Assembly: GCA_947427325.1 (NCBI GenBank)
Contig: CANEHP010000003.1
Location: forward strand, 1-32,704
Reading direction: 5' to 3'
From: an uncultured Clostridia bacterium
Lineage (GTDB): Bacteria > Bacillota > Clostridia > Oscillospirales > Ruminococcaceae
DNA length: 32,704 nt
In this document: positions 1 to 16,377 of the stretch, piece after piece
How positions within the stretch are numbered: position 1 is the stretch's first letter
How the letters are laid out: every line of letters begins with the position of its first letter
Notes under the pieces: model-generated
The model's database searches: none
What the model saw: only the letters and a program-made list of their open reading frames with translations
What the model was told of the DNA's origin: nothing
Translations under genes and position numbers: made by a program

Positions 1-57
1 TGCTTTGTCGGATATTCTATTAACAAATGTATCGACGGCGGGATTGTAAAAAAATAA
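1..57 (+). CDS. 3' end of an unidentified plus-strand gene
   Basis: The first 57 bases are open in frame 1 and end at TAA (55-57), giving the last 18 residues of a protein (CFVGYSINKC then IDGGIVKK). The frame closes two bases before a hairpin with a T run, which is where a gene end is expected, and the gene would converge with the leu operon. The fragment is too short to identify a family, and a chance open frame of this length cannot be excluded. Confidence 0.4.
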   Translation, partial: CFVGYSINKCIDGGIVKK

Positions 58-58
58 G

Positions 59-130
59 AAAGTTTCCGTTCAGAGAATTACCCTTGCGTAATTCTCAAGC
101 CCTTCTTCAAGGGGCGGACGGAAACTTTTT
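59..130. repeat. Branched palindromic repeat, copy 1; probable bidirectional terminator
   Basis: An outer stem AAAGTTTCCG (59-68) pairs with CGGAAACTTT (119-128). It encloses two smaller hairpins: GAGAATTAC/GTAATTCTC (73-96) and CCCTT/AAGGG (about 101-113). T runs follow on both sides (plus strand from 126; minus strand over the A-rich stretch 49-61). It could therefore end both the plus-strand gene to the left and the leu operon arriving from the right. The first 50 bases recur at 32655-32704 with 44 of 50 identical, so this is a dispersed family rather than a one-off terminator. Confidence 0.7.
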
Positions 131-208
131 ATATTATTTTAACAAGAAGTTTTTACCAACATTTTTTACGGCTTATTAAAACCATAAAGACCAACAGTTG
201 GGAGACTG

Positions 209-1282
209 CTAAATCTCGGCAGCAATTCTGTCGCCCATTTCGGAGCAGCTTACAAGGGTCATGCCCTCGCTCATAATATCTCCTGTGCGAATGCCATCGC
301 CGAGTACCTTATCCACCGCAGCCTCAACAGCGTCGGCTTCGGTCTGCATATCAAAGCTGTAGCGAAGCATCATAGCGGCGGAAAGAACGGTAGCTATGGG
401 ATTGGCTTTGTTCTGTCCCGCAATATCGGGAGCAGAGCCGTGAATAGGCTCGTAGAGTCCCAAGCTTCCCTCGCCCAGGCTTGCGGAGGGGATCATTCCC
501 AAAGAGCCTGTGATCATGCTTGCCTCATCGGAAAGAATATCGCCGAACAGGTTTTCGGTAACTATTACGTCAAACTGAGCGGGATTTCTTACCAGCTGCA
601 TGGCGGTGTTGTCCACCAGCATATCCGAAAATTCAACATCGGGGTAATCCTTTGCAACCTTGTGAGAAATCTCTCTCCAAAGTCTTGAGCTGTCAAGCAC
701 ATTTGCCTTGTCAACAGAAGTGACCTTTTTTCTGCGCTTTCTTGCCATATCAAAGGCTACACGGCAAATTCTCTCTATCTCATAATCACTGTATATCATT
801 AAATCCGAAGCGCATTTGTTTCCGCTGCTGTTGACGCAGGTTTTCTTTTCACCGAAATATGCGCCGCCGATAAGCTCGCGAACTATAACCAAATCAAGAC
901 CGTTGTCCGTAATATCGCTTTTTAAAGGACAAGCGGAGGCGAGAGGCTTCAGAAGCTTTGCGGGACGGATATTTGCAAAGAGCTTTAACGCTCCCCTTAT
1001 GCCCAAAAGTCCTGCTTCGGGACGCATACTGCCCTCTCCCTTATCCCATTTCGGACCGCCTACCGCTCCCAGCAAAACGCTGTCCGAAGCAAGACACTTG
1101 TCTACGGTTTCCCGGGGAAGGGGAACGCCCGTTTCGTCAATGGCTATCCCTCCCATAAGAACCTGTGTGTAATTAAAGGTGTGACCGAACCTTTCTCCCA
1201 CCTTATCCAATACCTTCATGGCTTCGCTTACAATTTCAGGGCCGATGCCGTCGCCCTTGATTACCGCTATATTTTTGGTCAT
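209..1282 (-). CDS. leuB: 3-isopropylmalate dehydrogenase LeuB
   Basis: Cytosolic NAD-dependent oxidative decarboxylase acting on 3-isopropylmalate (leucine synthesis). By family knowledge, the same enzyme class acts on 3-methylmalate in the citramalate route to isoleucine. The 357 residues match the usual LeuB length. It starts with the dinucleotide-fold strand [14 protein letters not shown], has the substrate-loop region [11 protein letters not shown], and the C-terminal decarboxylase signature [20 protein letters not shown] with its metal-binding Asp residues. It is the last gene of the operon, 73 bases after leuD, with an AAAGGA-type ribosome site upstream of the ATG. The palindromic element at 59-130 lies 80 bases past its stop. 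Nothing in it looks defective. Confidence 0.97.
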
Positions 1283-1355
1283 AGCCGTTTATCCTTTCTT
1301 TTGTCGTATTTTATTTTACTTTGCTTTTTTCCTGTCTGCGCCGCCGATTTCCGTC

Positions 1356-1844
1356 TTATTTTCCCGCCTTAATGGAATTAAGCAGTCCGCCCTTATCTAT
1401 AATATCCTTGATAAATTCGGGAAAAGGCTCGGCGGTAAAGGTTTTTCCCGAGGTGATATCCGTGATTTTGCCTGTGTCAAAGTCCACCTCTACCTCGTCT
1501 CCCGCCTTTATCTCCTTTGCCGCTTCGGGACATTCCAAAATAGGCAGTCCTATGTTTATTGCGTTGCGGTAGAAGATCCTGGCAAAGGTAGCCGCAATTA
1601 CGCAGGCGATACCCGATTCCTTAATGGCGATAGGCGCATGCTCTCTGGAGCTGCCGCAGCCGAAATTGGCTTCCCCTACCATAATATCGCCCTGTTTTAC
1701 ATTGTTTACAAATTCCTTGTCTATATCCTCCATACAGTGAGCGGCAAGCTCCTTATGGTCGGCTGTGTTAAGATATCTTGCAGGGATAATTACATCGGTA
1801 TCCACATTATCCCCATATTTATGTACTAAACCGTGTGCGTTCAT
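1356..1844 (-). CDS. leuD: 3-isopropylmalate dehydratase small subunit LeuD
   Basis: Swivel-domain subunit of isopropylmalate isomerase, working with LeuC to isomerise 2- to 3-isopropylmalate (or citramalate to methylmalate). At 162 residues it is of the short LeuD2/archaeal type, not the ~200-residue enterobacterial type. The hallmark [11 protein letters not shown] loop is present, preceded by [11 protein letters not shown] near the N-terminus. It lies between the Dabb gene and leuB in the same orientation. Its partner leuC is not adjacent: the Dabb gene separates them. Confidence 0.96.
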
Positions 1845-1915
1845 ATTTCAAAATCGATACAAGGCCCTAAGCATACAAGCCTTGTATCTCTCCTTTCAAA
1901 TCAAATCATTTCAAT

Positions 1916-2215
1916 TTAGGCAATAAAGTCAGCTGTATATGTCTTTTCAAGATTTTCGTCGAGAACGTTTCTGAAATTAAAGGCAAGAGGGCTTGTGTGA
2001 TAATTTTGCAGCGCTTCCTTGGTTTCAAACTGCGCCATTACCACCATATCTACGTTTGAGGAGCTAAGAAGAAGGTTTTCCACCTTAATGCTTATCATTC
2101 CGTCGATTTTACCTGCCAAGTTCTCAAAGCCGCTTTTCAGCTTAACGGAAGCGAGCCTTTTCTCGCTTTCCTCCAAATTCTTTTTGAATCTAAATAAAGC
2201 AATATGTGTAAGCAT
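1916..2215 (-). CDS. Dabb-domain (stress-responsive alpha/beta barrel) protein
   Basis: A 99-residue protein opening MLTHIALFRFKK, with HTSPLAFNF in the C-terminal half. This matches the small dimeric alpha/beta-barrel Dabb family (the start resembles the family's MxxHIVLFKxK, and the H-P pair is its usual landmark). Biochemical roles in the family vary (some plant members are cyclases, most bacterial ones are unassigned), so no reaction is claimed. It sits inside the branched-chain operon between leuC and leuD, with GGAAAGGG upstream of its ATG as ribosome site. A very A-rich spacer of about 90 bases separates it from leuC. Cotranscription with the leu genes is inferred from orientation and the lack of a terminator. 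Confidence 0.85.
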   Translation of the reverse strand: MLTHIALFRFKKNLEESEKRLASVKLKSGFENLAGKIDGMISIKVENLLLSSSNVDMVVMAQFETKEALQNYHTSPLAFNFRNVLDENLEKTYTADFIA

Positions 2216-2306
2216 AACTTTCCCTTTCCTGAATTTGCCGTTATTGTAGTTTGTGTTTTCGTTTTCTTTTTATTTTTCTGTTTTATTTTTATTTTTATTT
2301 TTTGCC

Positions 2307-3563
2307 TTAGCCCTTGTATCCCGCAATTTTTCCCGCAATGGCGCTTGCCGCCGCAACGTATGGGCTTGCAAGATAAACCTCGCTGTCTACATGACCCATT
2401 CTTCCCACAAAGTTGCGGTTGGTGGTGGAAACTGCCCTTTCTCCTGCCGCTAAAATGCCCATATGACCGCCGAGACATGGTCCGCAGGTGGGCGTGGAGA
2501 ATACGCAGCCCGCATTTATAAAGATTTCCGCAAGACCCTCCCGTATACACTGTAAATAAATCTTTTGCGTGGCGGGGATTACTATGCAGCGAACGCCCTT
2601 AGCGACCTTTTTGCCTTTAAGCACGCTTGCGGCTTGGCGCATATCGCTTATTCTTCCGTTGGTGCATGAGCCTATAACCGCCTGATCGATTTTTACCTCG
2701 CCCCAATCCTTTTCCGTTCTGGCATTTTCGGGAAGGTGAGGGAAAGAAACAGTCTGCTGGATTAAGTCAAGATCAATGTCGATAACCTGTGAATAAAGAG
2801 CGTCCCCGTCCGCCTTAAACACTTCAAAATCCCTGTCGGTGCGTTCCTTTACATAATCTATTGTCTGCCGGTCAACCTCAAATATACCGTTTTTCGCTCC
2901 CGCTTCAATAGCCATATTAGCCATACAAAGCCTGTCCTCAACGGTAAGAGAGGCAAGACCCTCGCCGCCGAACTCCATACTCTTGTACAATGCGCCGTCA
3001 ACGCCTATCATACCTATAATATGGAGAATAACGTCCTTACCCGTAACATAAGGCTTAAGTTTTCCGTGAAGATTAAAGCGGATAGCGGCGGGAACCTTGA
3101 ACCACGCTTCTCCCGTCGCCATACCTGCCGCCATATCCGTTGAACCTACGCCGGTGGAAAATGCGCCCAGTGCGCCGTATGTGCAGGTGTGACTGTCTGC
3201 GCCTATACATAATTCTCCGGGAGCAATAAGTCCCTTTTCGGGAAGCAAGGCATGCTCGACGCCCATATCTCCCGCATCGTAAAAGTTTACTATATCGTAT
3301 TTTCCCGCAAATTCACGGCACTGCTTACATTGCGCAGCCGCCTTAATATCCTTATTGGGCGCAAAGTGATCCATTACAAGGCTTATGCGACATTTATCAA
3401 AAACGCCCCCAAATCCCGCCTTGTTAAATTCATTGATCGCCACAGGGCCTGTAATATCGTTAGCCAGCACCATATCCAGCTTTGCACGGATAAGCTGTCC
3501 TTCTCTTACCTCGTCAAGTCCCGCATGCTTTGCCAAAATCTTTTGGCTCATAGTCATACCCAT
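2307..3563 (-). CDS. leuC: 3-isopropylmalate dehydratase large subunit LeuC
   Basis: Aconitase-superfamily subunit carrying the catalytic [4Fe-4S] cluster. The 418 residues fit the LeuC2/HacA-like class (about 420) rather than the ~466-residue enterobacterial LeuC, consistent with the short LeuD. Cluster ligands are readable: Cys300 in GSCTNGR and Cys360/Cys363 in PTCGPCLGG. The N-terminal DHFAPNK and the [14 protein letters not shown] motif are also present. The ATG follows an AGGAAG-type ribosome site. It is preceded by cimA with a gap of about 146 bases that holds short T-rich repeats but no obvious terminator. Confidence 0.97.
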
Positions 3564-3709
3564 ATTATTTTCTTCCTTTCTTTTAGAGCTTTTTTCTCAT
3601 ATTCTTGTTTTCATATTCTTGTTCTCGTATTATTATATAGTTTTTTTCGTACTTTTGCAAGGCTGTTTCAGAAGTTCTCGTTCGGAAGTTATTGTTCAGC
3701 AGCTTTCGT

Positions 3710-5323
3710 TCAGAAGTTCTTGTTCAGCAGCTTTTCGGCTTCCTTCGCCGTATGATAAAGGTAATAGTTTATTGCGTCAAGGAGCGCAGTAAGACTTGCG
3801 TCTATTACATCCTTGGACGCTCCCACCGTCGTCCAGATTTTTTCGCCGTCGGTGCTTTCGATTAAAACCCTTGTTACTGCGGCTGTGCTGTCCCCCTTGG
3901 CAATTACTCTTACCTTATAGTCAATAAGATGAGTGCGCTTCAGCTGCGGGTAAAATACCTCAAGGGCTTTTCTCAGGGCTTTGTCTATTGCGTTAACGGG
4001 ACCGTCCCCTTCGTCTGCGGTTATCTCGTATTTATCGCCGACCTTGACCTTTACCATTGCGCCCGCCTTTTCAAGACCGTATGTGCCGTAATTCTGGCTG
4101 GATACCACGTGAAAATGCTCAATTCTGAAAAAGGGCTGAAAATAACCCAATTCCTTTAACACCAAAAGCTCAAAGCTTGCCCCTGCCGCTTCAAACTGAT
4201 AGCCTAAATTTTCCAGCTTTTTCAGCTTATCCATAATCCTCTTGGTTTCGGGGCTGTTTTTATCAAGGCTTTTATCGAATGCAGCAAGCTTTGACAATAC
4301 CGTGCTTCTGCCGCTGACCTCGGAAAGCAGAAAGCTTCGTTCGTTTCCCACTGCCTCCGGAGGAATATGCTCGAAGGTTTTGGGATTTTTTGCCACTCCG
4401 TCGGCGTGCATTCCGCCCTTGTGCCCAAAAGCGTTTCTCCCTACATAAGCCATACTGCCCGCTAATTTTGTATTGGCGATTTCCGCAATGTAGCAGGCGG
4501 TGGGAGTTAACTGCTCCATGCTTTCACGAGGTACGCAGTCATAGCCTTTTTTCAGCTGTAAATTGGGGATAATAACCGAAAGGTTGGCGTTTCCGCAGCG
4601 TTCGCCGATACCGATAAACGTTCCTTGAATATGAACCGCCCCCGCCTTTACCGCCGCCATAGTGCAGGCTACGGCGCAGCCCGTATCGTTGTGACAGTGG
4701 ATTCCCACGGGGATATTTACCGCCCGAACCGCTTTTTTGGTGATTTCCTCGATTTCCTCGGGGAAAGAGCCGCCGTTGGTATCGCAAAGAGCTATTGTTA
4801 CCGCTCCCGCTTTTTCCGCCGCCCTCAAGGCTTCAAGGGCAAACTCGGGATTGTCCTTATAGCCGTCAAAAAAATGCTCTGCGTCAAATATTACTTTTTT
4901 CCCCTTGCCTGTAAGATAACTTACAGTATCGCTTATCATTGCGAAATTTTCCTCTGCCGACGCTCCGAGAATAATATCGGAATGAAGCTTCCAGCTTTTG
5001 CCGAAAACGCTTACATACTCGGTTTCGGCGATAAGAAGCGCATTCAGGTTTTCGTCCTCCTCGCAGGTAAGGTTTTTTCTTCTTGTAGAGCCGAAAGCCA
5101 CCGGCTTGGTGTAGTTCAGCTCAAGGTTTTTTGCTCTTTTAAAAAACTCCAGATCCTTGGGATTTGAACCCGGGTTTCCCGCTTCGGCAAAAGCAACTCC
5201 AAAGCTGTCTAATTTTTGCAGAATTTTCAGCTTATCGTCTGCGGAAAAACTGATTCCTTCCCCCTGTGCGCCGTCTCGAAGGGTTGAATCAAAAATTTCT
5301 ATTTTTTTCATTCCTGCCTCCAT
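3710..5323 (-). CDS. cimA: Citramalate synthase CimA
   Basis: Condenses acetyl-CoA and pyruvate to (R)-citramalate, the first step of the threonine-independent route to 2-oxobutyrate and isoleucine. The 537 residues match the CimA family (about 520-540), longer than LeuA-type 2-isopropylmalate synthases of ~390 residues. Visible are the DRE-TIM start FDSTLRDGAQGEGISFS, LCDTNGGSFPEEI, and the metal-binding HCHNDTGCAVA. A C-terminal LeuA-dimer allosteric domain (about residues 400-520) contains HVVSSQNYGTYGLEKAGAMV. The T-box upstream reads an Ile codon, which supports CimA over a homocitrate or isopropylmalate synthase. The last codons are partly duplicated just after the stop. Confidence 0.93.
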   Translation of the reverse strand: MEAGMKKIEIFDSTLRDGAQGEGISFSADDKLKILQKLDSFGVAFAEAGNPGSNPKDLEFFKRAKNLELNYTKPVAFGSTRRKNLTCEEDENLNALLIAETEYVSVFGKSWKLHSDIILGASAEENFAMISDTVSYLTGKGKKVIFDAEHFFDGYKDNPEFALEALRAAEKAGAVTIALCDTNGGSFPEEIEEITKKAVRAVNIPVGIHCHNDTGCAVACTMAAVKAGAVHIQGTFIGIGERCGNANLSVIIPNLQLKKGYDCVPRESMEQLTPTACYIAEIANTKLAGSMAYVGRNAFGHKGGMHADGVAKNPKTFEHIPPEAVGNERSFLLSEVSGRSTVLSKLAAFDKSLDKNSPETKRIMDKLKKLENLGYQFEAAGASFELLVLKELGYFQPFFRIEHFHVVSSQNYGTYGLEKAGAMVKVKVGDKYEITADEGDGPVNAIDKALRKALEVFYPQLKRTHLIDYKVRVIAKGDSTAAVTRVLIESTDGEKIWTTVGASKDVIDASLTALLDAINYYLYHTAKEAEKLLNKNF

Positions 5324-5387
5324 TTCTGACTTTTTCCTTTTTTATCTTTTTTTGATTTTGGAGGATGAAGGCGTACAAAAATAAGTA

Positions 5388-5681
5388 ATATAAAAATAAC
5401 CTTCATCTCCAAAGAGATGAAAGTCACAACTTCCACGGTACCACTCTAATTGACATTGCCGTAAAGCAACGCCCACTCATAGACATCAAACAATGCCTGC
5501 CCCTGTAACGTGAGGACACGTTCCGTTCTCCGAATGAAAAAAGCTTAGGCTGATTATTCACTCATTGACGGAAGGCTCAAAGGTGATTTAGAAAGAAGTT
5601 CCGCCGCTGTCTTACACCAACCGACAGCTCTCTGTGGGCTTCCGTACTTTCCGCTCCTTGTCACAGCCTTTTTTATATTAC
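5388..5681 (-). promoter_or_regulatory. T-box riboswitch leader, apparent Ile (AUC) specifier
   Basis: Reading the minus strand, stem I starts with AAGGCU and closes with AGCCUU. It carries the AGUA motif, the AGAGAGCUG...UUGGUG apical elements and the UUUGAG kink-turn strand. The specifier-loop strand reads AAAUCA just before CCUU, placing AUC (Ile) at 5587-5585. The antitermination T-box sequence AGAGTGGTACCGTGG is at 5447-5433, where UGGU can pair with an ACCA tRNA end. The competing terminator TTCATCTC-TTTG-GAGATGAA plus a T-rich tail is at about 5421-5385. Uncharged tRNA-Ile would favour readthrough into cimA. A Leu specifier would need a shifted register. Confidence 0.93.
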
Positions 5682-5687
5682 AATGAC

Positions 5688-5716
5688 ATAATAACATATT
5701 ATTAGCGGATTGTCAA
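5688..5716 (-). promoter_or_regulatory. Sigma-A promoter of the cimA-leuCDB operon
   Basis: TTGACA (5716-5711), 17-base spacer, TATTAT (5693-5688) on the minus strand. Transcription would start near 5681, immediately before stem I of the T-box. The opposing tRNA promoter lies about 110 bases away, so the two units are divergent. Confidence 0.85.
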
Positions 5717-5824
5717 TACATTGACGCAGATTTTTGCGCTTATATGCTGCAATTTTTGATTGTTTTCCCGTTTTTCCCCGTTACGGTTTTTTCAAATTTA
5801 TGTGCCTAAGATTTCTAAAAAATA

Positions 5825-5853
5825 TTGACATAAACTTAAAATTATGATATACT
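5825..5853 (+). promoter_or_regulatory. Sigma-A promoter of tRNA-Gln
   Basis: TTGACA (5825-5830), 17-base spacer, TATACT (5848-5853). The predicted start is near 5860, about ten bases before the mature tRNA 5' end. A strong -35 with near-consensus -10 is typical of stable-RNA promoters. Confidence 0.85.
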
Positions 5854-5870
5854 GATTCTTGTTTGAATAT

Positions 5871-5946
5871 TGGGCTATAGCCAAGCGGTAAGGCAACGGA
5901 CTTTGACTCCGTCATTCCGGTGGTTCAAATCCACCTAGCCCAACCA
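5871..5946 (+). tRNA. tRNA-Gln (UUG anticodon)
   Basis: The acceptor stem TGGGCTA (5871-5877) pairs with TAGCCCA (5936-5942), followed by discriminator A5943 and an encoded CCA (5944-5946). The anticodon arm ACGGA/TCCGT encloses loop CTTTGAC, with anticodon TTG at 5903-5905, reading CAA glutamine codons. The T arm contains GGTTCAAATCC. All stems close without mismatch, and no intron or second tRNA is seen nearby. Confidence 0.97.
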
Positions 5947-6080
5947 GCCCGCAAGGCGGGCGGCTAATATGCTTCCAATTTTACGGGAGCGTATTATTAT
6001 GGATTTATACCAAAAATCTTTTTGGTAACGATAACACAGAAGGGAATTGAACTGTAATCTTTTATTTAGGAGGGATTGGT

Positions 6081-6281
6081 ATGCCTGATTACAAGGCTAT
6101 GTACTATCACTTGGCGGGGCGCATGGCGACTGCTATCGATGCGCTTGAAGCCACCACCAATGCGTTAACCGATATTACCGAAAGGTTGAAGCTGGCGCAG
6201 CAGACCACGGAGGAAATGTTTATTTCCGCCTCCGACGACGATGAAGATTTTTCGGATAACTCGGATAACGTTTCGGAGTAA
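6081..6281 (+). CDS. Small acidic hypothetical protein downstream of tRNA-Gln
   Basis: A 66-residue protein with an excellent ribosome site (AGGAGGG at 6068-6074, six bases before ATG). The N-terminal two thirds look helical (TAIDALEATTNALTDITERL is amphipathic and possibly coiled coil). The C-terminus is a highly acidic Asp/Ser tail (SASDDDEDFSDNSDNVSE). No signal peptide, membrane segment or catalytic motif is visible, and I do not recognise a named family. No terminator with a clear T run separates it from the tRNA, so the two may share a transcript ending at the hairpin at 6337-6366. Confidence 0.75.
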   Translation: MPDYKAMYYHLAGRMATAIDALEATTNALTDITERLKLAQQTTEEMFISASDDDEDFSDNSDNVSE

Positions 6282-6336
6282 GAGCCGCAGTCACTGTTTT
6301 TATAGGCGTCTTTTACGATAATAGGATATTATGGGT

Positions 6337-6366
6337 CGGAATGAGTTGTGTTCATTCCGTTTTTTA
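6337..6366 (+). terminator. Rho-independent terminator after tRNA-Gln / small ORF
   Basis: CGGAATGA (6337-6344) pairs with TCATTCCG (6352-6359) across a seven-base loop, followed directly by seven Ts. It lies about 55 bases past the stop of the 66-residue gene. Confidence 0.85.
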
Positions 6367-6463
6367 TTTATAACTTATGCTATCTCTTTTTAAGTTGGAT
6401 TATTAGACGTAATTCCTTTAACCGTTTTGAGGATTACGCCATACATTTTTAAAACACTTTTAC

Positions 6464-6501
6464 AAAAAACCTCCCCAAAGCCTAAGCTTTGAGGAGGTTT
6501 T
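6464..6501 (-). terminator. Terminator of the S8 protease gene (bidirectional shape)
   Basis: On the minus strand a long stem AAACCTCCTCAAAGC / GCTTTGGGGAGGTTT is followed by a T run (6469-6464). It sits about 50 bases past the protease stop. The plus strand also ends in four Ts, so it may insulate both directions. Confidence 0.88.
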
Positions 6502-6550
6502 AATATTTATTTAAGCTGTTTGATCTTAAGCTTAAACGGGGAAATAAGCA

Positions 6551-9500
6551 TTACTTGCGCTTATCTCTCTTTCTCGCAAATACAACTGCGGCAGCTGCTG
6601 CCACGGCAGGTACAAATGCGATTGCAATACCGGTAGGCTTGTTCTTATCGGGATCATCCTTTCCGGGATCGCCTGCAACGCCTGTTGTAGTTTCCTCGGG
6701 AGTTGTCTCGGAAGCTTCGGTGTCCTCGGGAGTTGTCTCGGGAGCTTCGGATTCCTCGGGAGTTGTTTCGGAAACGGGAGCTTTTTCTTCGGCTATAACA
6801 AATTCGCCTACTTGGTCGCCGTTTACCGTAAATACAAGGAAGCCGTCAACAATCTCCGCTTTCACCTGAGTGTATGTGCCGTCTGCATTCTTGACGGATA
6901 CGGTGGTTTTTTCAGGATCAAAGCCCTCGGGAACGGGAACCTTAATGGTTACGGGTCCGTCTACAGGGTTGCCTTCCGCATCGGTCAATGTTACGCTGTA
7001 GGTGACGGACGATTCGTTGGAAGCCACCACTTCGGGAGCTTTATAGATCACGCCCTCCGTAACGGGATAGGTGATCTCAATGCCTGTTTCTTCATCTGTT
7101 ACGGTTACTACCGTAGACTTTGCGCCGGTGAGAAGCATAGGCCATACGCCGTCGCCTGCATCGCCGATCTTTCTTGAAGAGCAGTCTACTACCGTGTAGG
7201 TTTCATTGTATTCTTCATCTGTCTCTTCATGGGTGCTTACGGCGATCTGATAAAGGTTGTTTGTGTTGCCGTCACAAGCGGAGAGATAGAGATAACCGTC
7301 TTCTCCCGCTACCATAGAAGCAACGATATCGTCTTCCATAGCTAAGGGGTATGTTTCGGAAATACATGACTTTTCACTTACATCGAAGGTGCATCCGTAT
7401 GCCGGATTGCCTTCTTCATCAATAGTAGCATAAATATTGAACATCCATAAATATCCCAAGTCATCCAATGCGGCAAATTGTTCTGCGACACAAACCTCAC
7501 CGGTAATGTCGTCAACTACCTCGGTTTCGCCCATGCTTGCAATAGCTACAACGTACTCGGCGCCGGTAGCGAGCATAAGATAATATTGCAAGTTAAATGC
7601 GTAAGGCTGCAATGCCATAGGATTGGTAGGACCTATAAGCATAGAACCGTAAACACCGACGATCAAAGGCTCTTCCTCGGTAGAGAATACTTGGCTGTAT
7701 GCCATATCCCACAGCGGAACGCCTAAGGGGTTGCTTGCAACGGCAACCTCGCTGCCGTCGGTAGGGTCGATTTCGTGCATACCATATGAACCTTGAACAC
7801 CGTCAAACATATAAATATGTCCGTTATCGGTATTGAGGGTTGCGGAAATCATAGAGGACTTAAGAGGATAGGTTTCGGACCATGTGGTGTCCTTTGACAT
7901 ATCCCAGCTGTAGATAAAGGGATTGCCTTCTTCGTCCTGCAATGTACCGCCGAGAAGAATGTTGAGAGTTTCAACCTTGATCTCGATAGAATCGGAAACA
8001 TTTTTGTCTGCCTTGGAGGAAGCTGTGATTACTGCTTTTCCGTCGCTTACGGCAGTAACTCTGCCATTGCCGTCAACAGTCATAACATCCTCGTCGGAGG
8101 AGCTCCAATCCAAATCCGCATTGGTTAATGTCCAAGGCAATGCGGTAGCGTTTACCTTCTGTGAAGAGCCCTTGATCATTACCGTATCCGCATTGAGGAT
8201 AACGGCTGAAACCTTATCGGTAGGCTTTGCCCAATCGGGGTTAACGGAAGGAGTGGACTTATCGGGAATAATCAATGCGCAAAGCTGTGCGTTAATATTT
8301 TCGCTTGCCTCAAAGGTCTTAGTTGTGGGATCAATTTCAACAAAGTAGGATTCGACATTGAAATTGTACAAAGCCCAGCAAACCTTCTTGGTGTTGGGAT
8401 CATATTCCATCGCCTGAATTGAATAAATGCCGGAAACAAGCTTTTCGTCAGTTGCAGCCAAATCAACTACAAGCTCAGGCGCCGCTTTGCCTGCAAGACC
8501 CTCCGACGTGTACTTGTAAACCTTGCCTGTGCCGCGCTCTGATGAGTAGAAGCTGCCGTTCTCGTCACATGCCAATGTGAATGTTGCAAAAGGAATCAAT
8601 CCTACAAGCTCGGGAACACAGTTAAGCTTATCGAAGGAAATAAGGTAAGTTTCATCGCTGATATCATAGCCCATTGCCTTTCCGACAATAGCGTAGATCT
8701 TGCCGTCCTTTGCGTTGTAAGCCATATCCAAAGGAATAATTTCATCCTCAAAGAAGTTCTGAATATTGATAACTTCCTTAGTATCCGTCAGATCGCTTTC
8801 GGGCATTACAATAAGCGTGCCCTTTTTGTCTAATGCGTATACGATATGATCTGCAATAGTTGCGGCGTTTATCATATACTTGGAATTTTCATACTTGACC
8901 TCAGGGTCTTCGGGAGTTACGTTCACTCCGTCAAAGCTGGTCCAATAGTAATGACCGTATTCGGTGTTGAATGCGATTCTGCCGGGAAGAATCGTGCCTT
9001 CGCCGAACTTTTCGTCAATTTCAACGGTTACGGTATTGCATGCATAGTCGCAAACCTGCAAATAAAGCATATCTGCATTGACTTCGGAAACATCGATTTC
9101 AACTTTATACTCGTCACCCGCCTTAGCCGCTTCGTCAGGACCGACAGAAGCGTAAACTCTGGAGCCGCTCTTGTTGGTGAGAAGAACCGCAGCGATAAAC
9201 TGGTTATCCTTAACGGTAACGGTAAGCTTGCCGTCCTTAACAACAGGATCGGAAACAATTACGGGCTTGGTGTTATCAATGGTAACAGAGGTCTTAAGCG
9301 CATTGGTAAGATCAATATCCTCCCAGCGAACATTGCCATTTGCGTCCTGATAATATTCGGGAGCAAGCGCAAAGGTGATGTTCAGCCTTTCGCCTTCCTT
9401 AGCGCCGCTGAAATCATAGTTGGGTTTAAGGGTCTGAACGGTTTTTTGCCATGAACCCGCATTAGTATGATAGTATGCGCAGTCAACAGCGCCGATTGAG

Positions 9501-12500
9501 TTATCTATAACGGTTTTTCCTGTGGTTTCATTGTAAACAACGAATCTGGAATCTACCGCATTGCGGATAGCGGCAAACTGCACCATATTGAGCAATGTGC
9601 CGTTGGTGTTGTTTACTGCGTTTCGGTTGGGATTGTAAACTTCCTCTTCTTCAAGATAGTTAAAGTAAGGGTTGCCGCCGAAATAATAAGCGTCGCCGCT
9701 TTCGCCGTAGGTTACCCCGAACGCATTTGCACGGAAAGAGTTTTCATCGCTTGCGACATAAAGGTAAGGTACTCTGTGTTCAGCGCCGGAAAGGTAATAA
9801 GCTTCGTAAGAGCCTTTATCGAACATGGACGCTGTGGACCAGTCGCCATAGTATCCCAATACGGGGATCGAGTGAGAGGTTGAAAGAACGCCCTCCTCGT
9901 CTGATACGCCGTCAGCGTAAACAAAGCCCTGGATATATGCGCCTGCATCCTCATAGTAACGATCTAACCAATTCTTGCTTTCATCGGAAAGAGTAAGAGT
10001 GACTTGTACATGAACCTTGCCGTTTGCGGGAACAACAGCCGTATCGCCGCAGTCAAATTCGGCTGTTGAAGGCAGCAGCTGAGTGCTCTGACCCATTACA
10101 AGGCTGGGTAAGCCTGCTAAGCTTAATCCTTCTATAGGTCCTGCTTCCTGAGTGAAGATATCTGCGTCAAGAGCATAGCTCTTTTCGGTATTTGTAAGAT
10201 TATAAAGAGTGAAGCCGAAGGTGTAAACACCCTTTCTTGCGGGGTCGTCGCCCAGCTCAACCTTAACCTTGCCGTCCTTTGCGCCTGCATTGGCGTTTTC
10301 GTCCATAAGGATATAGCTTTCCGCCTTAACAACATTGCCGATGTTGGCAAGACCTGCGCCCTGGCGCAATACGGGATAGTATGCAAGTCCGTACTCGCCC
10401 AAATCTTCAATCATAGGCTCTGCCGTAGACATAAGCAGGCTTTGGGCAAGAACACGTGCGGAAAGACCCGTTTTCTTGTCAAGACCCTTTTCCTTTATGT
10501 ACTGTGCCGCCAAAGCCGCCATACCTGCAATCTGAGGAGAAGCCATGGAAGTACCCGACATATTTACGTATTTATCGGTTTCAGCGGGTTCGCCGTCAAC
10601 GGAATAAATGTTTCCGCCGGGTGCGGTAATCTCGGGCTTTAATTCCAGAGAACCGGGAACGCCCCAGGAGGAGAAGTCGCTGATAACGGACTTGTCGGGA
10701 GTTGTGATGACTATAGCTTCAGGCTTATCCTTATTAACGATTTTGCCTGTGTAGTATTTTCCGTCCTCGGAAGGAACGGCGTTAGCTTTTAAGAGCTGAC
10801 CCTCTGCCTGTGTAACGGTTATAGCGGGAGCGTCTTGGGTATAGTCGGAAAGATCCATACGGATAACGCCCGGTTGGTTATTGTAAATAATGGTTGCGGC
10901 TGCGCCTGCCTTAACGGCATTTTCGCATTTTTCAACGAAGCTGATATCGCCTCTGGAGCATACCGCTATCTTGCCCTTAAGAGCGTCGCCCACAGCTGCC
11001 CAATCCTCGGGAGTGCCGAAACCGTCGATAAGCACGTATTCCAGCTCGCCCTTGAGAGTAGCAAAAGGCTTGTTGGTATAAGCTTCGCCGTTGTTGCCCA
11101 CAGTGGATTCAGTGTAAACAACGGGGTAACCGTCAACGGTAAAGTATACGCTGTAAGCGCCGATATTCTCCGCAGAAGCTACGGTAAAGGCATTGGTGAA
11201 AGATCCGGGAGAACCGTCGGTCTGTGAGTTTACGTCGTCGGTATAAAGGAAGCCCTGAGTTTGAGCGTTATCCGCCCAGTGACCTGCGTTGCCTGCGGAA
11301 ATAGCGACAACCGCGCCGCTATTGGTGATATCCTCAAGTATCTGCTGATATTCGGGATTGCTGTTTCTCGAGCTGCCGCCGTTGCCTGAACCCAGTGAAA
11401 GGTTGACAGCGTCAGCGCCTAAAACGATAGCGTCCTCAATAGCAAGCATATAGTCGGAATCGTAAGCTCCGCCGCCCTTGCCGAATACCTTCATGGTAAG
11501 GATCTGTGCGTCGGGAGCTACGCCCTGTACTCCTGTGGAGCTGATGGCTGCGACGTAGTCGCCGTACTGATCCTCGATAAACCTGTTGGCTGCCGAAATG
11601 CCCTCAACGTGAGAACCGTGACCACCCTGTGAATCGTTGTCATGGGTAATGTCATAGTCGCCGTCGATATAGTTGTAAGCAAAAGGAATTTTCTCGCTGA
11701 GGAATACCTTTGCGGGATCGATTTTTACATTGAGCTGATCCAAAACCGCCTCGATCTTTGCAGCGCTGAGGAGGTTAAGAGAAGTCTTATAATCGGCAAA
11801 ATTTTTGCCCAATGCCTTCGCATTCTGCTTTAAGGAATAGAGGAATGCGCCTTCTGCAAAGGATTGATGGTCGGAATCGATACCCGTATCGATAACCGCA
11901 ATCTTTGTGCCTGCGCCTGTGTATCCCTCTGCCCAAGCTGCGCTTGAACCGATCTGCAAAGCAGATGTAGCCATATTGGGGTCGTTGGGTACATCCTCTA
12001 CGGTTTTAGCCGCCTCGTATTTTGTTTCAATAAGTACGGTCTTAACACCGCTGATTTTTTCGATTGCCTTGATTTGACCGAATTTTACATTTGCGGAAAT
12101 AATATTTGCCGCCAAAGTTAAATTATGAACAACATCAAGATTTTCTTTTGTGGCCTTTTCGATTTTTTCTTCAACCGTTTGCTGTTTAAGCTTCAGACTG
12201 TCACGGTAAGCGACTGCCTTGGAGTTTACGGCAATAGTTTCGATATCGAAACCGGCCTTAATGGTGGAGGCGTCCTCAAGAACGATGGATACGCGAACTT
12301 CGTCGTCATTTGCATAACCAAGGTCTTCAGCTTCTGTCATCTTGTCCTTGCCGGGAGAAACAACAGAAATGCCCTTGCCGCTTAAATCCGAAATATTTAC
12401 TCCGCTGGCGTTGGCTGTGGTAGGGACGACTACCGCAGAAATCGTTACAGCAGCAGCTAAAATTCCGGCAAGCAAGCGTTTTAACACTTTTTCTTCTTTC

Positions 12501-12502
12501 AT
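6551..12502 (-). CDS. Giant secreted, surface-anchored S8 (subtilisin-like) serine protease
   Basis: A 1983-residue exported protease. A signal peptide (basic start, hydrophobic core, likely cut after TANA near residue 32) precedes an inhibitor-I9-like propeptide (about 47-165). The peptidase_S8 catalytic triad is intact: Asp205 (AVIDTGID), His295 (GGHGSHVEGI), Ser652 (SGTSMASP), plus oxyanion Asn in SAGNAGH. A PA domain is inserted at about 480-580. C-terminal to the catalytic core are Fn3-like regions as in C5a-peptidase/lactocepin proteins, repeat-rich segments that could form a beta-propeller (about 1230-1425 and 1515-1790), and between them a Big2 Ig-like domain (about 1429-1510). The tail has three 10-residue Ser/Glu/Thr/Pro repeats, then NKPTG, a hydrophobic stretch and a KRDKRK stop-transfer end. 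This resembles a sortase signal but lacks a canonical LPxTG/NPxTG. Substrate is unknown, probably extracellular protein or peptide. Ribosome site AAAGGAG precedes the ATG. Confidence 0.93.
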   Translation of the reverse strand: MKEEKVLKRLLAGILAAAVTISAVVVPTTANASGVNISDLSGKGISVVSPGKDKMTEAEDLGYANDDEVRVSIVLEDASTIKAGFDIETIAVNSKAVAYRDSLKLKQQTVEEKIEKATKENLDVVHNLTLAANIISANVKFGQIKAIEKISGVKTVLIETKYEAAKTVEDVPNDPNMATSALQIGSSAAWAEGYTGAGTKIAVIDTGIDSDHQSFAEGAFLYSLKQNAKALGKNFADYKTSLNLLSAAKIEAVLDQLNVKIDPAKVFLSEKIPFAYNYIDGDYDITHDNDSQGGHGSHVEGISAANRFIEDQYGDYVAAISSTGVQGVAPDAQILTMKVFGKGGGAYDSDYMLAIEDAIVLGADAVNLSLGSGNGGSSRNSNPEYQQILEDITNSGAVVAISAGNAGHWADNAQTQGFLYTDDVNSQTDGSPGSFTNAFTVASAENIGAYSVYFTVDGYPVVYTESTVGNNGEAYTNKPFATLKGELEYVLIDGFGTPEDWAAVGDALKGKIAVCSRGDISFVEKCENAVKAGAAATIIYNNQPGVIRMDLSDYTQDAPAITVTQAEGQLLKANAVPSEDGKYYTGKIVNKDKPEAIVITTPDKSVISDFSSWGVPGSLELKPEITAPGGNIYSVDGEPAETDKYVNMSGTSMASPQIAGMAALAAQYIKEKGLDKKTGLSARVLAQSLLMSTAEPMIEDLGEYGLAYYPVLRQGAGLANIGNVVKAESYILMDENANAGAKDGKVKVELGDDPARKGVYTFGFTLYNLTNTEKSYALDADIFTQEAGPIEGLSLAGLPSLVMGQSTQLLPSTAEFDCGDTAVVPANGKVHVQVTLTLSDESKNWLDRYYEDAGAYIQGFVYADGVSDEEGVLSTSHSIPVLGYYGDWSTASMFDKGSYEAYYLSGAEHRVPYLYVASDENSFRANAFGVTYGESGDAYYFGGNPYFNYLEEEEVYNPNRNAVNNTNGTLLNMVQFAAIRNAVDSRFVVYNETTGKTVIDNSIGAVDCAYYHTNAGSWQKTVQTLKPNYDFSGAKEGERLNITFALAPEYYQDANGNVRWEDIDLTNALKTSVTIDNTKPVIVSDPVVKDGKLTVTVKDNQFIAAVLLTNKSGSRVYASVGPDEAAKAGDEYKVEIDVSEVNADMLYLQVCDYACNTVTVEIDEKFGEGTILPGRIAFNTEYGHYYWTSFDGVNVTPEDPEVKYENSKYMINAATIADHIVYALDKKGTLIVMPESDLTDTKEVINIQNFFEDEIIPLDMAYNAKDGKIYAIVGKAMGYDISDETYLISFDKLNCVPELVGLIPFATFTLACDENGSFYSSERGTGKVYKYTSEGLAGKAAPELVVDLAATDEKLVSGIYSIQAMEYDPNTKKVCWALYNFNVESYFVEIDPTTKTFEASENINAQLCALIIPDKSTPSVNPDWAKPTDKVSAVILNADTVMIKGSSQKVNATALPWTLTNADLDWSSSDEDVMTVDGNGRVTAVSDGKAVITASSKADKNVSDSIEIKVETLNILLGGTLQDEEGNPFIYSWDMSKDTTWSETYPLKSSMISATLNTDNGHIYMFDGVQGSYGMHEIDPTDGSEVAVASNPLGVPLWDMAYSQVFSTEEEPLIVGVYGSMLIGPTNPMALQPYAFNLQYYLMLATGAEYVVAIASMGETEVVDDITGEVCVAEQFAALDDLGYLWMFNIYATIDEEGNPAYGCTFDVSEKSCISETYPLAMEDDIVASMVAGEDGYLYLSACDGNTNNLYQIAVSTHEETDEEYNETYTVVDCSSRKIGDAGDGVWPMLLTGAKSTVVTVTDEETGIEITYPVTEGVIYKAPEVVASNESSVTYSVTLTDAEGNPVDGPVTIKVPVPEGFDPEKTTVSVKNADGTYTQVKAEIVDGFLVFTVNGDQVGEFVIAEEKAPVSETTPEESEAPETTPEDTEASETTPEETTTGVAGDPGKDDPDKNKPTGIAIAFVPAVAAAAAVVFARKRDKRK
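6691..6780 (-). repeat. Three 30-bp tandem repeats encoding the Ser/Glu/Thr/Pro stalk of the protease
   Basis: Units at 6691-6720, 6721-6750 and 6751-6780 share CCTCGGGAGTTGT and differ at a few positions. They encode a 10-residue motif of the form SETTPEESEA. Such stalks typically span the cell wall. Unit number may vary between strains because the copies are in frame and nearly identical. Confidence 0.85.
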
Positions 12503-12854
12503 TTAAGTGCTCCTTTACTCCTTATTTTATTTATATCACGCCCATAGGCATAACACATACAAGGCTAAGAACTTGTTCTCATATTAACGCTTTTGCGCTT
12601 TTACTTGTTAAAATGCATTGGTATATGTATGTGCAAGCAGCAAACAGCATTATGATTTGTGAATTTTTATTTCACAAAACCGACACTTATATACAATTTT
12701 AATTTTACAGCACTTTAATTTAAAAATCAATGCATTTATCACAAAATCTTTACATATTCACTTAAAATGTCACTTTGCATTTTTTTAAATGCGTATAGCG
12801 GGTAATTGTTGTGGAATGTTACAAAAGGGCAGTCGAAAAAGGTTGGTTAAAATC
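12503..12854. other. AT-rich intergenic region upstream of the protease
   Basis: No coding frame or RNA gene is supported here. Near the protease start there is a TGATATAAAT extended -10-like element on the minus strand (about 12536-12527) without a good -35. An 8-bp palindrome TTTGTGAA/TTCACAAA with a seven-base spacer lies at 12656-12678 and could be an operator. AGAACTTGTTCT at 12568-12579 is a second near-palindrome. None of these is assigned to a known regulator. Confidence 0.4.
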
Positions 12855-12893
12855 AAAAAAACCGCCCTCCCTGAGCGTTTTGAATAGGGCGGT
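12855..12893 (-). terminator. Terminator of the fliB-like gene
   Basis: Minus-strand stem ACCGCCCT (12893-12886) pairs with AGGGCGGT (12868-12861), followed by a run of Ts (12860-12855). It begins about 18 bases past the stop of the fliB-like gene. Confidence 0.85.
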
Positions 12894-12910
12894 TTGGTGT
12901 TATTGATTTT

Positions 12911-14137
12911 TCAGCTTACTAAAAATGCGGCGTGGGGGAGGTCGAAGGAGTCGGTTGCTATAAAAGAACCGACAGTCCATGTATCAGCAACCTTACTGTT
13001 AAGTATAATTTTTGCGGCATGAGTAAATGCCAGGGCTAAATCTCTGTCGTTCCAATTCTCCGGCAAAAAGGCGGGAACACAGATTTTGAGCATATTGTAA
13101 AAAACAACGAGAACAAAATAATTTTTAAATATTCCGTCTAAAGGAGATTGGCACAGGATTTGATTAACCAGCAGATTTTCCAAAATATACGGGCGCTCCG
13201 CTTCTATACTTCCGAACAGCTCTTGATTGTTTAAATATTTGTCTTTGCTGTAAACAAAATCAATTTTGTCATTGTTTTTTTCTGTTTTGACGCCCAAATT
13301 TTGCCTTACCTCCGAAAACAGCTGTTTTATAAAGCTTAAGCCTTCAGCTTCTTCAGCCCAATCCGCCATTCTTACAAGAATATCAATAGATTTGAGAGCG
13401 GCGCTGTCATCGGTTTGAGGAGCTTTCAGGGAATCGGCAATTTTCCGGCACGTTTCATGGTCAAGCATCATTTTGCAAAGACTTGCAATTTTTTCATCAT
13501 TTCCTTCATCTATGTATTCATCGGCCTTTTTACTGAAATATCCTAATATGAGCAGTCTTTCCCGAACAGAAAATCTGCGGTTTTGAAGAATATCTATTTC
13601 CGCATTTTTTACGATCCAAAAATAAGGATATCCTTTCCAGCTCTTTGGAACATTATAATTGGACATACGCCCCTTGTTTATATATTTGTCCTTTCCGTCA
13701 TACTCTTCCTCAAGAATTTCAAGACCCTCGGGATGATTCATAAGTATTTCGGTTACGTGAGGGCATGTAATATTAAGGGTGAAGATCATTGCGCTGTCTT
13801 CCACAACAGCATGAAGTCGGGGAAAGGTATTGCATACATAACCCATTTTTTCCTCCCCAAGCTCTTTTTGAAGCCGACAAAGTCCATCGTCGCACAGCAT
13901 AGGGCAGTATCCGCCGTCTCCGAATTTTATTGCCGCATATTGCAGATCGTTTGCGTTGTTTATTCTGACAAAGGCGTTAGCGATTATTTTTCTTAATTCG
14001 GGACTGCAGCGGGCGTGCTTTATATTAAGATAATCTCTTTTGCCGAAGAGTATACCCCAGTGCTGACAGCAGGTTTCGGGACACTGCGAGCCTATACAGT
14101 GAAACTCATCATAATACTTGAACTTAACTACCTTCAT
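12911..14137 (-). CDS. fliB: FliB-like flagellin lysine N-methylase
   Basis: A 408-residue cytosolic protein close to the ~400-residue FliB family, which methylates surface lysines of flagellin. The N-terminus has a Cys-rich motif CIGSQCPETCCQHWG (about residues 14-28). A second cluster, CPMLCDDGLCRLQ followed by VCNTFPR (about 77-113), together forms the CxxxCxxC pattern typical of FliB/YkgJ proteins and is presumed to bind metal or Fe-S. The rest is helical with no obvious SAM motif, as in other FliB proteins. It sits directly downstream of the complete flagellin gene on the same strand but has its own promoter, so it probably modifies that flagellin. The AGGAGA ribosome site supports the ATG at 14137. 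Confidence 0.9.
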   Translation of the reverse strand: MKVVKFKYYDEFHCIGSQCPETCCQHWGILFGKRDYLNIKHARCSPELRKIIANAFVRINNANDLQYAAIKFGDGGYCPMLCDDGLCRLQKELGEEKMGYVCNTFPRLHAVVEDSAMIFTLNITCPHVTEILMNHPEGLEILEEEYDGKDKYINKGRMSNYNVPKSWKGYPYFWIVKNAEIDILQNRRFSVRERLLILGYFSKKADEYIDEGNDEKIASLCKMMLDHETCRKIADSLKAPQTDDSAALKSIDILVRMADWAEEAEGLSFIKQLFSEVRQNLGVKTEKNNDKIDFVYSKDKYLNNQELFGSIEAERPYILENLLVNQILCQSPLDGIFKNYFVLVVFYNMLKICVPAFLPENWNDRDLALAFTHAAKIILNSKVADTWTVGSFIATDSFDLPHAAFLVS

Positions 14138-14162
14138 CTTGATTCTCCTTATTTATTAAAGC

Positions 14163-14190
14163 ATTGTATCAAAAGCTGCGGAAATTTCAA
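14163..14190 (-). promoter_or_regulatory. Sigma-A-like promoter of the fliB-like gene
   Basis: TTGAAA (14190-14185), 16-base spacer, TACAAT (14168-14163) on the minus strand, about 25 bases before the start codon. It lies after the flagellin terminator, so the methylase appears to be transcribed independently of sigma-D. Confidence 0.65.
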
Positions 14191-14354
14191 AGCAATAAAG
14201 CTGTTTCTGTTTTATTTATATTTTAACATTTTTCCTGCCATTTGTCTATATGTTTTTTCAACAATAAGAACTCCCGCCGTTCTGTATATTTTTTCATTAC
14301 CTCGTCCTGCGCAAAAGCGGCGGGAACATCGCTTTTCCAATTATACAAACAATA

Positions 14355-14372
14355 CCCCCGCCGAAGCGGGGG
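14355..14372 (-). terminator. Terminator of the complete flagellin gene
   Basis: CCCCCGC (14355-14361) and GCGGGGG (14366-14372) form a GC-rich stem with a CGAA/TTCG tetraloop. The minus-strand tail is TATTGTTTGTAT, a weak T run. The identical stem-loop follows the third flagellin copy at 18323-18340. Confidence 0.75.
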
Positions 14373-14376
14373 CAAT

Positions 14377-14402
14377 GTATTTGTAGGAATTGTAATAAGT
14401 AC
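14377..14402 (-). repeat. Conserved 3'-UTR element shared by the three flagellin copies (copy A)
   Basis: On the minus strand, GTACTTATTACAATTCC followed by TACAAATAC lies between the flagellin stop and its terminator. The same sequence is at 18345-18370 (after copy 3), and its core is at 18164-18185 on the plus strand (after copy 2). It marks the extent of the duplicated unit beyond the coding region. Confidence 0.8.
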
Positions 14403-14424
14403 AATAAAGCTTGCGCTGAATATA

Positions 14425-16062
14425 TTAGCCGAGGAGCTGGAGAACTGCCTGAGGCTGCTGATTAGCCTGAGCCAGCATAGCCTGAGAAGCCTGCTGCAAG
14501 ATGTTGAACTTGGTGTAGTTAATCATCTCGGTAGCCATATCTGTATCCCTGATCTGAGATTCAGCGTTTGTTAAGTTCTCGTTAGTAGTGGTTAAGTTGT
14601 TTACAGTGTACTCAAGACGGTTCTGGAGAGCACCGAGGTCAGCTCTCTGCAAGGAAACCTTCTTAACTGCTGCGTCAACTGAGGTGATAGCCTTGTTAGC
14701 TGCTTCTCTGGTGGAAACGTCTATGTTTGCAACACCCAATGAATCTGCGCCCATATCGTCAACATTAAGAGCAACTCTCTGATCCTTAACGCCGTTAGCG
14801 CCGATCTGGAATACTAAGCCTTCGCCGTTGCTGCCTGTGAAGTTCTTACCAAGACCTAAGCCTTCGGTTACATCTGCTGCGCCAATGGCATCAACTTTAT
14901 TGAAGTAAATATGACCGTTGTTAGCTCCGTCAGGATTCTTAGCGTCGGTCAATTTAACCTCATAATCATATCCTGCCTTAGCCAAAAGGTTTTCAATATC
15001 CTTTTCGGAATAGTCAACGCCTGTTGACAGGTGCAATGTAACCGCTGCGCCGCTTGTGCCTATAACGGGAGCTGTATCGGTAACAACCTCTTCCTTGCCG
15101 GCTGCTCTGTCAAACGAAATAGCAACGCTTGCAACAAGAGATTCGTTAAGCTTAGAATCACCGTAAGAGTTAGCTGTAAGGGTGATAGTATCGGAAGAAC
15201 CAACGCCGCCGTTTGTGCCGTCCGCTACGTTAGTCGATGCGTCAATTTCAATGGTTCCGCGAGTGCCTGCTACGGTTGCAGTTGTGGTGGCTGCTGCTGC
15301 TGTGATAACGCCATATTCACTCTTAAAAGTAATATCACCAAAAGGAGCGGTCATACCTGCGTCCTTGGGAACGGTTGCGTTCTTGATTAAGTCGTTGATC
15401 TCTTCATCAGTATAGGATTTATTAGCAACCAGGTTAACAGTAACCTTAAGTCCGGCTTTATCCCAAACAGCATTCTCTCCGCCTGCTCCGGAAGCTGAGT
15501 TCGTTGTAAACGCAATCTGCATTCCCTTAACGGAAGATGTGGTGGAAATGCGTCCGCCGCCGATAGCAGCAACCTTTTCGTTCATTCCGTAAAGAGCGCC
15601 GTAGTTATTGGTGTTTCCGCCTGCGCCCGAAAGAGAACCGTCAAGCAGCTGCATTCCGTTGTACTCGGTAGCTGTGGAAATTCTGTCGATTTCGCTCTTA
15701 AGAGCGTCAACTTCCTTCTGGATAGCCTCACGGTCTGTATCATTCTGGTAAGTACCATTAGCGGACTGTACAGCAAGTTCTCTCATTCTCTGGAGAATGG
15801 AGTGAGTTTCGTTCAAGCCGCCTTCAGCAGTCTGGATAAGAGAAATACCATCGTTAGCGTTTCTTGTAGCCTGAGCAAGACCACGGATCTGAGATCTCAT
15901 TTTTTCGGAGATAGCCAAGCCTGCAGCGTTGTCGCCTGCACGGTTAATCTGATAACCGGAGCTGAGCTTTTCGGTAGCCTTCTTAAGACCGGCTACGTTT
16001 GTGTTCATCTTGTTGTTCGCATTGAGAGCGGACATATTATGTTGTACTACTAATCCTGCCAT
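14425..16062 (-). CDS. fliC: Flagellin (complete copy)
   Basis: A 545-residue flagellar filament protein exported by the flagellar type III system. The conserved N-terminal D0/D1 region (residues 1-~150) contains HNMSALNANNKMN, the LSSGYQINRAGDNAAGLAIS signature and RELAVQSANGTYQNDT. The conserved C-terminal D1/D0 region (about 455-545) contains ALQNRLEYTVNNL and ends AQANQQPQAVLQLLG. The intervening ~300 residues are Thr/Ala/Gly-rich and variable, forming surface domains. It is the only copy here with a start, a GGAGG ribosome site (16072-16076) and a sigma-D promoter (16202-16228), so it is the copy presumed expressed in this orientation. Confidence 0.97.
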   Translation of the reverse strand: MAGLVVQHNMSALNANNKMNTNVAGLKKATEKLSSGYQINRAGDNAAGLAISEKMRSQIRGLAQATRNANDGISLIQTAEGGLNETHSILQRMRELAVQSANGTYQNDTDREAIQKEVDALKSEIDRISTATEYNGMQLLDGSLSGAGGNTNNYGALYGMNEKVAAIGGGRISTTSSVKGMQIAFTTNSASGAGGENAVWDKAGLKVTVNLVANKSYTDEEINDLIKNATVPKDAGMTAPFGDITFKSEYGVITAAAATTTATVAGTRGTIEIDASTNVADGTNGGVGSSDTITLTANSYGDSKLNESLVASVAISFDRAAGKEEVVTDTAPVIGTSGAAVTLHLSTGVDYSEKDIENLLAKAGYDYEVKLTDAKNPDGANNGHIYFNKVDAIGAADVTEGLGLGKNFTGSNGEGLVFQIGANGVKDQRVALNVDDMGADSLGVANIDVSTREAANKAITSVDAAVKKVSLQRADLGALQNRLEYTVNNLTTTNENLTNAESQIRDTDMATEMINYTKFNILQQASQAMLAQANQQPQAVLQLLG

Positions 16063-16071
16063 AATAATTTT

Positions 16072-16108
16072 CCTCCATGATTTCTGCTGTCAATTTCCTT
16101 TTGACAGC
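16072..16108 (-). promoter_or_regulatory. Candidate CsrA-binding leader of the flagellin mRNA
   Basis: On the minus strand, GCTGTCAA and TTGACAGC (16108-16101 and 16093-16086) form a perfect 8-bp hairpin whose loop is AAGGAAA, displaying GGA (16098-16096). A second GGA lies in the Shine-Dalgarno sequence GGAGGA just downstream. A GGA-loop hairpin plus a GGA overlapping the ribosome site is the arrangement used by CsrA to repress hag in Bacillus subtilis. That CsrA or FliW exists in this genome is inferred; neither gene is in the window. Confidence 0.6.
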
Positions 16109-16201
16109 TCGCAGCAGCATTAAAAATTTTACGGCTGCGATTGTTAAAAATTAATGATAAGATTTGCAAATCTTCAAGGCTTCTTGAACCTTTCAGAAAT
16201 A

Positions 16202-16228
16202 ATATCGGCGGTGACGAAAAAAACTTTA
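16202..16228 (-). promoter_or_regulatory. Sigma-D (sigma-28) promoter of the flagellin gene
   Basis: TAAA (16228-16225), 15-base spacer, GCCGATAT (16209-16202) on the minus strand. This is an exact match to the Bacillus-type sigma-D consensus. It leaves a leader of about 135 bases containing the GGA hairpin. No comparable promoter was found in front of either headless flagellin copy. Confidence 0.92.
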
Positions 16229-16371: not shown

Positions 16372-16377
16372 ATAAAT

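Follow-up and report, generated by a model that had tools for sequence, protein, structure and literature searches.

A dispersed family of hairpin-rich, covarying repeats in a clostridial order, carried in one genome by an element with terminal inverted repeats

Two repeat copies in the window

The window is the whole 32,704-nucleotide stretch of DNA analyzed here, and it is contig G000:C3 (32,704 bp) of a draft genome of 2.3 Mb in 277 contigs that is 86% complete; copy counts for this genome derive from searches. Copy 1 is flanked by a plus-strand reading frame with its stop at 55–57 and by the 3' end of leuB on the minus strand, and its stem has a run of A ahead and a run of T behind. These features agree with the convergent gene junction of the original prediction. 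A T-box leader (5410–5673) lies upstream of the leuA-leuC-leuB genes, and a tRNA is located nearby at 5871–5943. Three consecutive flagellin genes occupy 14425–19150 with the middle one (16841–18124) on the opposite strand, and at the threshold used two of the three match the C-terminal flagellin domain only. A gene encoding a 2592-residue protein with a GH94 domain spans 24746–32524, and copy 2 is located 90 bp upstream of its start. The features of the two copies are collected in Table 1.

Table 1. Coordinates of repeat copies 1 and 2 and of the gene facing copy 1.
Feature	Position	Strand	Evidence or remark
Candidate decayed left terminal repeat, copy 1: GGGATTGTAAAAAAA (compare GGGGCTGTAAAAAAA)	39–53	+	Local score 22, weak alone
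Outer stem, 5' arm, copy 1	57–71	+	Pairs with 116–130 in the computed fold
Hairpin 1, copy 1 (additional arm, optional in the family)	73–96	+	Arms 73–81/88–96; homologous and covarying in 9 copies
Hairpin 2, copy 1 (family hairpin A, CCCTTCTTCAAGGGG form)	99–115	+	Arms 99–104/110–115, computed fold
Inverted duplication, left end of the element	115–154	-	82% to element positions 12–55
Outer stem, 3' arm, copy 1; leads into a T-rich stretch	116–130	+	Computed fold
leuB, 3' end toward copy 1	209–1282	-	PF00180 (Iso_dh), E = 4.4e-145
Copy 2, left 91 bp of a young TIR element, truncated where the contig ends	32614–32704	+	98% to element
Terminal inverted repeat GGGGCTGTAAAAAA, copy 2	32615–32628	+	41 exact sites of the 14-mer in the draft genome; reversed control 0
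Start of the structured core, copy 2: AAAGTTTCCGTCC, hairpin 1, first arm of hairpin A	32655–32704	+	
Hairpin 1, copy 2	32669–32692	+	Perfect 10-bp stem, CTTG loop

In the computed fold, the palindrome of copy 1 forms an outer stem and two inner hairpins with an energy of -37.4 kcal/mol (z = -7.81), and none of 200 shuffles was equally stable. This is the fold originally proposed for the site. The 48-base pattern of letters common to copies 1 and 2 has two matches in the window and zero expected by chance. A chance palindrome is ruled out by the fold z score together with this shared-letter pattern.

The outer stem and two hairpins were predicted for both copies, and this holds for copy 1 but not for copy 2. 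Copy 2 stops at 32704 within the loop of hairpin 2, where the contig ends, so its outer stem is not an observation. The visible part of copy 2 as a whole is little better than shuffles (z = -1.55), and hairpin 1 is its sole strong stem. The two compensatory differences claimed between the copies were read directly from the sequences. Where copy 1 has the pair A80-T89, copy 2 has T32676-A32685, and a G32678-C32683 pair in copy 2 takes the place of the C82xC87 mismatch of copy 1. The position of A80-T89 also varies together with its partner in other copies.

The TIR element and its fold-back derivatives

Searching the genome with copy 1 gave as clear matches copy 1 itself and six copy-2-like places that start with AAAGTTTCCGTCC. 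One copy is whole within a contig (C84:1311–1648) and reads GGGGCTGTAAAAAACTACC, a string of hairpins, and GAGTTTTTACAACCCC, with terminal inverted repeats (TIRs) around about 340 bp. At least 12 copies of this element are present in the genome, counted by left or right ends, and most of them break contigs. Contig ends are about 150 bp or less away from 10 of 11 intact left ends, and about 170 bp or less away from all but a few of the element ends, left or right. Contigs break in the element because its copies are near-identical, and the end of the window is one such break. Copy 2 is a young copy, truncated to its left end.

The element in this genome has the features of a MITE in that it is short, multicopy, and intergenic, has TIRs, and lacks a transposase gene. 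Complete TIR pairs of 90–660 bp contained no transposase genes. They also showed no consistent target-site duplication; 4-bp flanking repeats were found at only two of about 25 pairs, which is near chance. The TIR is present in 10 of the 71 genomes of the genus, and six congeners have 14–65 TIR sites each with a reversed control of 0. A second, unrelated interior (TTGACAGTTGACAG...) carries the same GGGGCTGTAAAAAA ends, which points to movement in trans. This second family has a GGCTTCGCCGA hairpin and measures 124–370 bp in the present genome, for example at L066 (G000:C57:5492–5615). Further loci of the TTGACAGTTGACAG-interior family are L049, L059, L070, L106, and L112.

The right side of copy 1, read on the minus strand, was aligned to the left end of the element over 44 columns at 82% identity, and none of 2000 shuffles was as good. 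The matching stretch outside the copy 1 stem is 21 nt, and this stretch alone was reached by 15 of 2000 shuffles. The right arm of copy 1 thus repeats the left end of the element in inverted form, which makes copy 1 a fold-back derivative, and an old and decayed one. The score of the candidate terminal repeat to its left was matched by 55 of 2000 shuffles, and the same bases double as the coding end (..IVKK, stop) of the upstream frame. The long closing stem is known from copy 1 only. Longer copies in the genome, which read AAGTTTCCGTCC...GGTGGGGTTTCC or GGCGGCAGGTTTCC, leave the long outer stem unclosed, and therefore the three-way junction with this stem is a private derivative and not a conserved unit. 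The 70-bp junction that had been taken for the repeat unit is thus a fold-back fragment derived from a longer element. A fold-back derivative of another type than copy 1 is L114 (G000:C237), a minimal element that is about 55 bp long and has right-end sequence only (GGGGCTGTAAAAAAACTCTGCCGTGC...GGCAGAGTTTTTTAC).

Copy 1 has the attributes of a plain bidirectional intrinsic terminator of two convergent genes, namely its position between them, the A and T runs, and a very stable stem. The idea that it is such a terminator and that its likeness to the repeats is incidental is nevertheless quite improbable. Copy 1 matches the dispersed element much better than chance allows (E = 1e-12 in the genome), and its right arm still follows the sequence of the element's left end past the stem, which refutes the incidental part of the idea. 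Termination can still be true although the likeness to the repeats is not incidental, and the stem and U run suggest that copy 1 may terminate transcripts of leuB and the facing gene. A simple terminator scan left copy 1 unflagged because its loop region is over the size range of the scan.

A structured core across the order

The conserved core of the repeat is about 165–185 bp long with five or more hairpins, and it extends from AAAGTTT to a hairpin closing with CCCC. The order of hairpins, derived from relatives in the genus, is A (CCACCCTTTTCAAAGGGTGG), B (CCAAAGGGCAAAGCCCTTTGG), C (CGCCCTCCGCAGAGGGCG), a linker (GCGCTCCG..AAGGGGTGAATT), D (AAAACAGTCCGGTGGACTGTTTT), and E (GGGGAAGCCCTGCAAGAGAGGGCTTCCCC). 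In the family, hairpin 1 is optional and forms an additional arm inserted within hairpin A, and whole hairpin arms are swapped for other palindromes among copies. A covariance model of the first three hairpins, A–C (R1), had matches in 93 of the family's 299 genomes and in 37 of 107 genera. These matches, with the multiple element copies in the present genome, bear out the prediction of a dispersed palindromic family. Many genomes of the family have at least 15 scored R1 copies each, adjoining unrelated genes. At the class level, matches were found in 17 of 393 genomes with the strong ones almost all inside the order, and confident core matches outside the order are nearly absent. Within the genus, a one-query search found the core in 10 of 71 genomes.

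Genome G177 contains fifteen near-identical cores in unrelated flanks that start with AAAGTTT, and most of them end at CCCC about 165–180 bp on. Across the order, the core begins at AAGTTT in unrelated flanks without the GGGGCTGTAAAAAA TIR. The TIR is thus a local vehicle, and the order-wide core lacks the terminal repeats of a MITE. A contig scan found two loci, both in one MAG, 'uncultured Ruminiclostridium'. Viral carriage was searched in two IMG/VR scans that gave no matches, and one unannotated 'phage' scaffold, MT836735, gave a weak match. A plasmid search gave no match. Genome G191 has cores arranged as inward-facing inverted pairs in intergenic gaps, and one of these sites is within a gene run that, judged by eye, resembles histidine utilization. 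The cores on contig C1 of G191 (L149–L160) are clustered, with several elements each in 1–20000, 20001–40000, and 1325001–1345000 and none in four stretches spanning 40001–120000.

Covariation in the core extends beyond the two sites first noticed. In an alignment of 87 copies, 96.1% of the cells are paired, and 20 of the 22 pairs have changes on both sides. There are 288 double-change cells compared to 79 in shuffles (0/500 as many) and at most 94 in slid controls. Two limits apply here: fitting the alignment (A3) to the model favors structure, and the shuffles ignore relatedness. Hairpins D and E are 98.9% paired with 35 double changes compared to 10.7 in shuffles, and hairpin 1 plus hairpin A in nine copies have 12 compared to 4.7. 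This covariation suggests that selection or a copying process keeps the stems intact. Loops and inter-hairpin linkers are conserved across genera beside variable stems, a pattern that speaks for structural constraint, either in RNA or in single-stranded DNA. The compensatory changes could also arise from DNA copying, with template switching between hairpin arms perfecting the palindromes, and not from selection on the fold. Long inverted repeats are known template-switching substrates. The stems of the core are close to perfect, and the replacement of whole hairpin arms by other palindromes fits this process. However, template switching alone does not predict variable stems beside conserved loops and linkers, and we consider it a possible but unlikely source of the changes.

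The gene context of the core was compared with control gaps using neighbor genes from mechanical ORF calls. Both neighbors were called for 58 copies, which comprise 35 codirectional, 18 convergent, and 5 divergent settings compared to 73, 22, and 27, respectively, in the control gaps (convergent versus divergent, Fisher p = 0.011). The predicted enrichment at convergent gene ends is therefore present but modest. An excess between convergent genes is also seen for the pneumococcal BOX, RUP, and SPRITE repeats, where it is explained by tolerated insertions downstream of genes (PMC3049150). In 47 of 66 cases, the upstream gene and the core point the same way (binomial p = 0.0008, although the copies are not independent). 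This orientation, the strong covariation, and the conserved loops and linkers would suit a host structured RNA gene or cis-regulatory RNA that has been multiplied by duplication. Such an origin is improbable given the high copy numbers beside unrelated genes in many genomes, the patchy presence in the genus and the family, the near-identical copies with unrelated flanks in one genome, and the lack of an Rfam match.

Mobilization and relationship to known repeats

The original prediction also raised a REP-like family with a REP-associated tyrosine transposase, and this part was not supported. We did not detect a Y1/RAYT transposase in the present genome (86% complete) or a Y1 transposase in eight core-rich genomes that are 94–100% complete (G164, G270, G094, G344, G312, G690, G601, and G505). 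Conversely, the motif is absent from all 14 Y1 loci scanned in other genomes. The high copy number, intergenic location, 3'-end bias, and inverted dimers of G191 do resemble REPINs, but the unit of 165–185 bp with five or more hairpins compares to 20–40 bp for REPs, there is no GTAG tag, and the foot is not conserved. REP/REPIN sequences moved by a REP-associated tyrosine transposase are thus a very improbable identity for the family. The search for an autonomous partner covered two transposase families, Y1 and IS256, in draft genomes. IS256 (PF00872) was rejected as the mobilizer; its matches were in 4 of 7 genomes at loci without the TIR ends.

The core was compared with known repeat systems. 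REP, BIME, and REPIN sequences with RAYT (PMC2817692, PMC3116915) are likewise high-copy extragenic palindromes that form inverted dimers and are mostly downstream of genes, whereas the core is much longer and has neither a GTAG foot nor an associated tyrosine transposase. The CGTC-tagged palindromic repeats (PMC3733652) also form inverted dimers and have no dedicated transposase, and many cores have CGTC before hairpin A. However, CGTC is not conserved in the cores (GGTC, GCTC, and CATC also occur), the core's first stem pairs differ from the A-T pairs found in that class, and the core unit is far longer. The CGTC-tagged class is described from five phyla that do not include Firmicutes (PMC3733652). 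MITEs (PMC10969869) share with the present element the small size, the lack of a transposase gene, the TIRs in this genome, the many intergenic copies, and the stable transcript folds. The core differs from MITEs in being order-wide without a TIR and in its strongly covarying multi-hairpin structure, and a target duplication was not seen. The BOX, RUP, and SPRITE repeats of Streptococcus pneumoniae (PMC3049150) are structured interspersed Firmicute repeats with the same convergent-gene excess; the terminator-like SPRITE and the BOX and RUP TIRs that pair in the fold are further points of likeness. Compared by description, they differ from the present family in host group, sequence, and modules. 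They are mainly from one species group, whereas the present family is order-wide, and no mobilizing IS was found for it.

Rfam 15 contains no family that matches the repeat at gathering or relaxed thresholds, and the open-access literature examined contains no description of the repeat family. A large set of candidate structured RNAs predicted from the human microbiome includes palindromic and terminator-like ones (PMC8040213); passages of its main text name no such element, and the motif could be among the predicted candidates. Judged against Rfam 15 and the open-access literature, the family is new, as originally proposed, although the table of PMC8040213 could contain the motif.

These data establish that the order has a dispersed repeat family that is rich in hairpins with covarying stems and is here located inside a TIR element, with copy 1 as a fold-back derivative and copy 2 as a truncated young copy. 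The best explanation of the whole, and probably the correct one, is that the two sites are fragments from a new family of non-autonomous interspersed repeats that are rich in hairpins and resemble MITEs, REPINs, and BOX elements. The core is carried inside a MITE-like element with GGGGCTGTAAAAAA TIRs in this genome and in several congeners. A transposase that recognizes the GGGGCTGTAAAAAA ends presumably moves this element in trans along with the second, unrelated interior. Upstream of the GH94-like gene, copy 2 is a recent copy represented by its left end. At copy 1, an inverted duplication of the left end produced the long stem with A and T runs, which now probably ends transcription of leuB and the facing gene. 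It is rather unlikely that the core is instead a distinct kind of mobile structured-RNA element that has no terminal repeats, target duplication, or dedicated transposase, possibly spreading through the order by RNA- or hairpin-dependent copying and captured only at times by transposons with TIRs.

A high-copy structured repeat that has no Rfam entry affects annotation in an order that is abundant in gut and MAG data. The repeat affects assembly by breaking contigs, including the present one, and it probably affects the transcript ends of many genes. The family is easy to model because its covariation is strong. The absence of an evident mobilizer raises the testable question of how such repeats spread. 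At locus L126 (G281:C90, 1501–2261), two inverted cores flank about 450 bp of cargo; the cargo includes a small ORF (MDFADDFYKRIEYLKSEK...) and a sequence that resembles an operator (TTGTAACGTTACAATT). The small ORF between the inverted units has no Pfam match, and the cargo is a possible route to the mobilizer.
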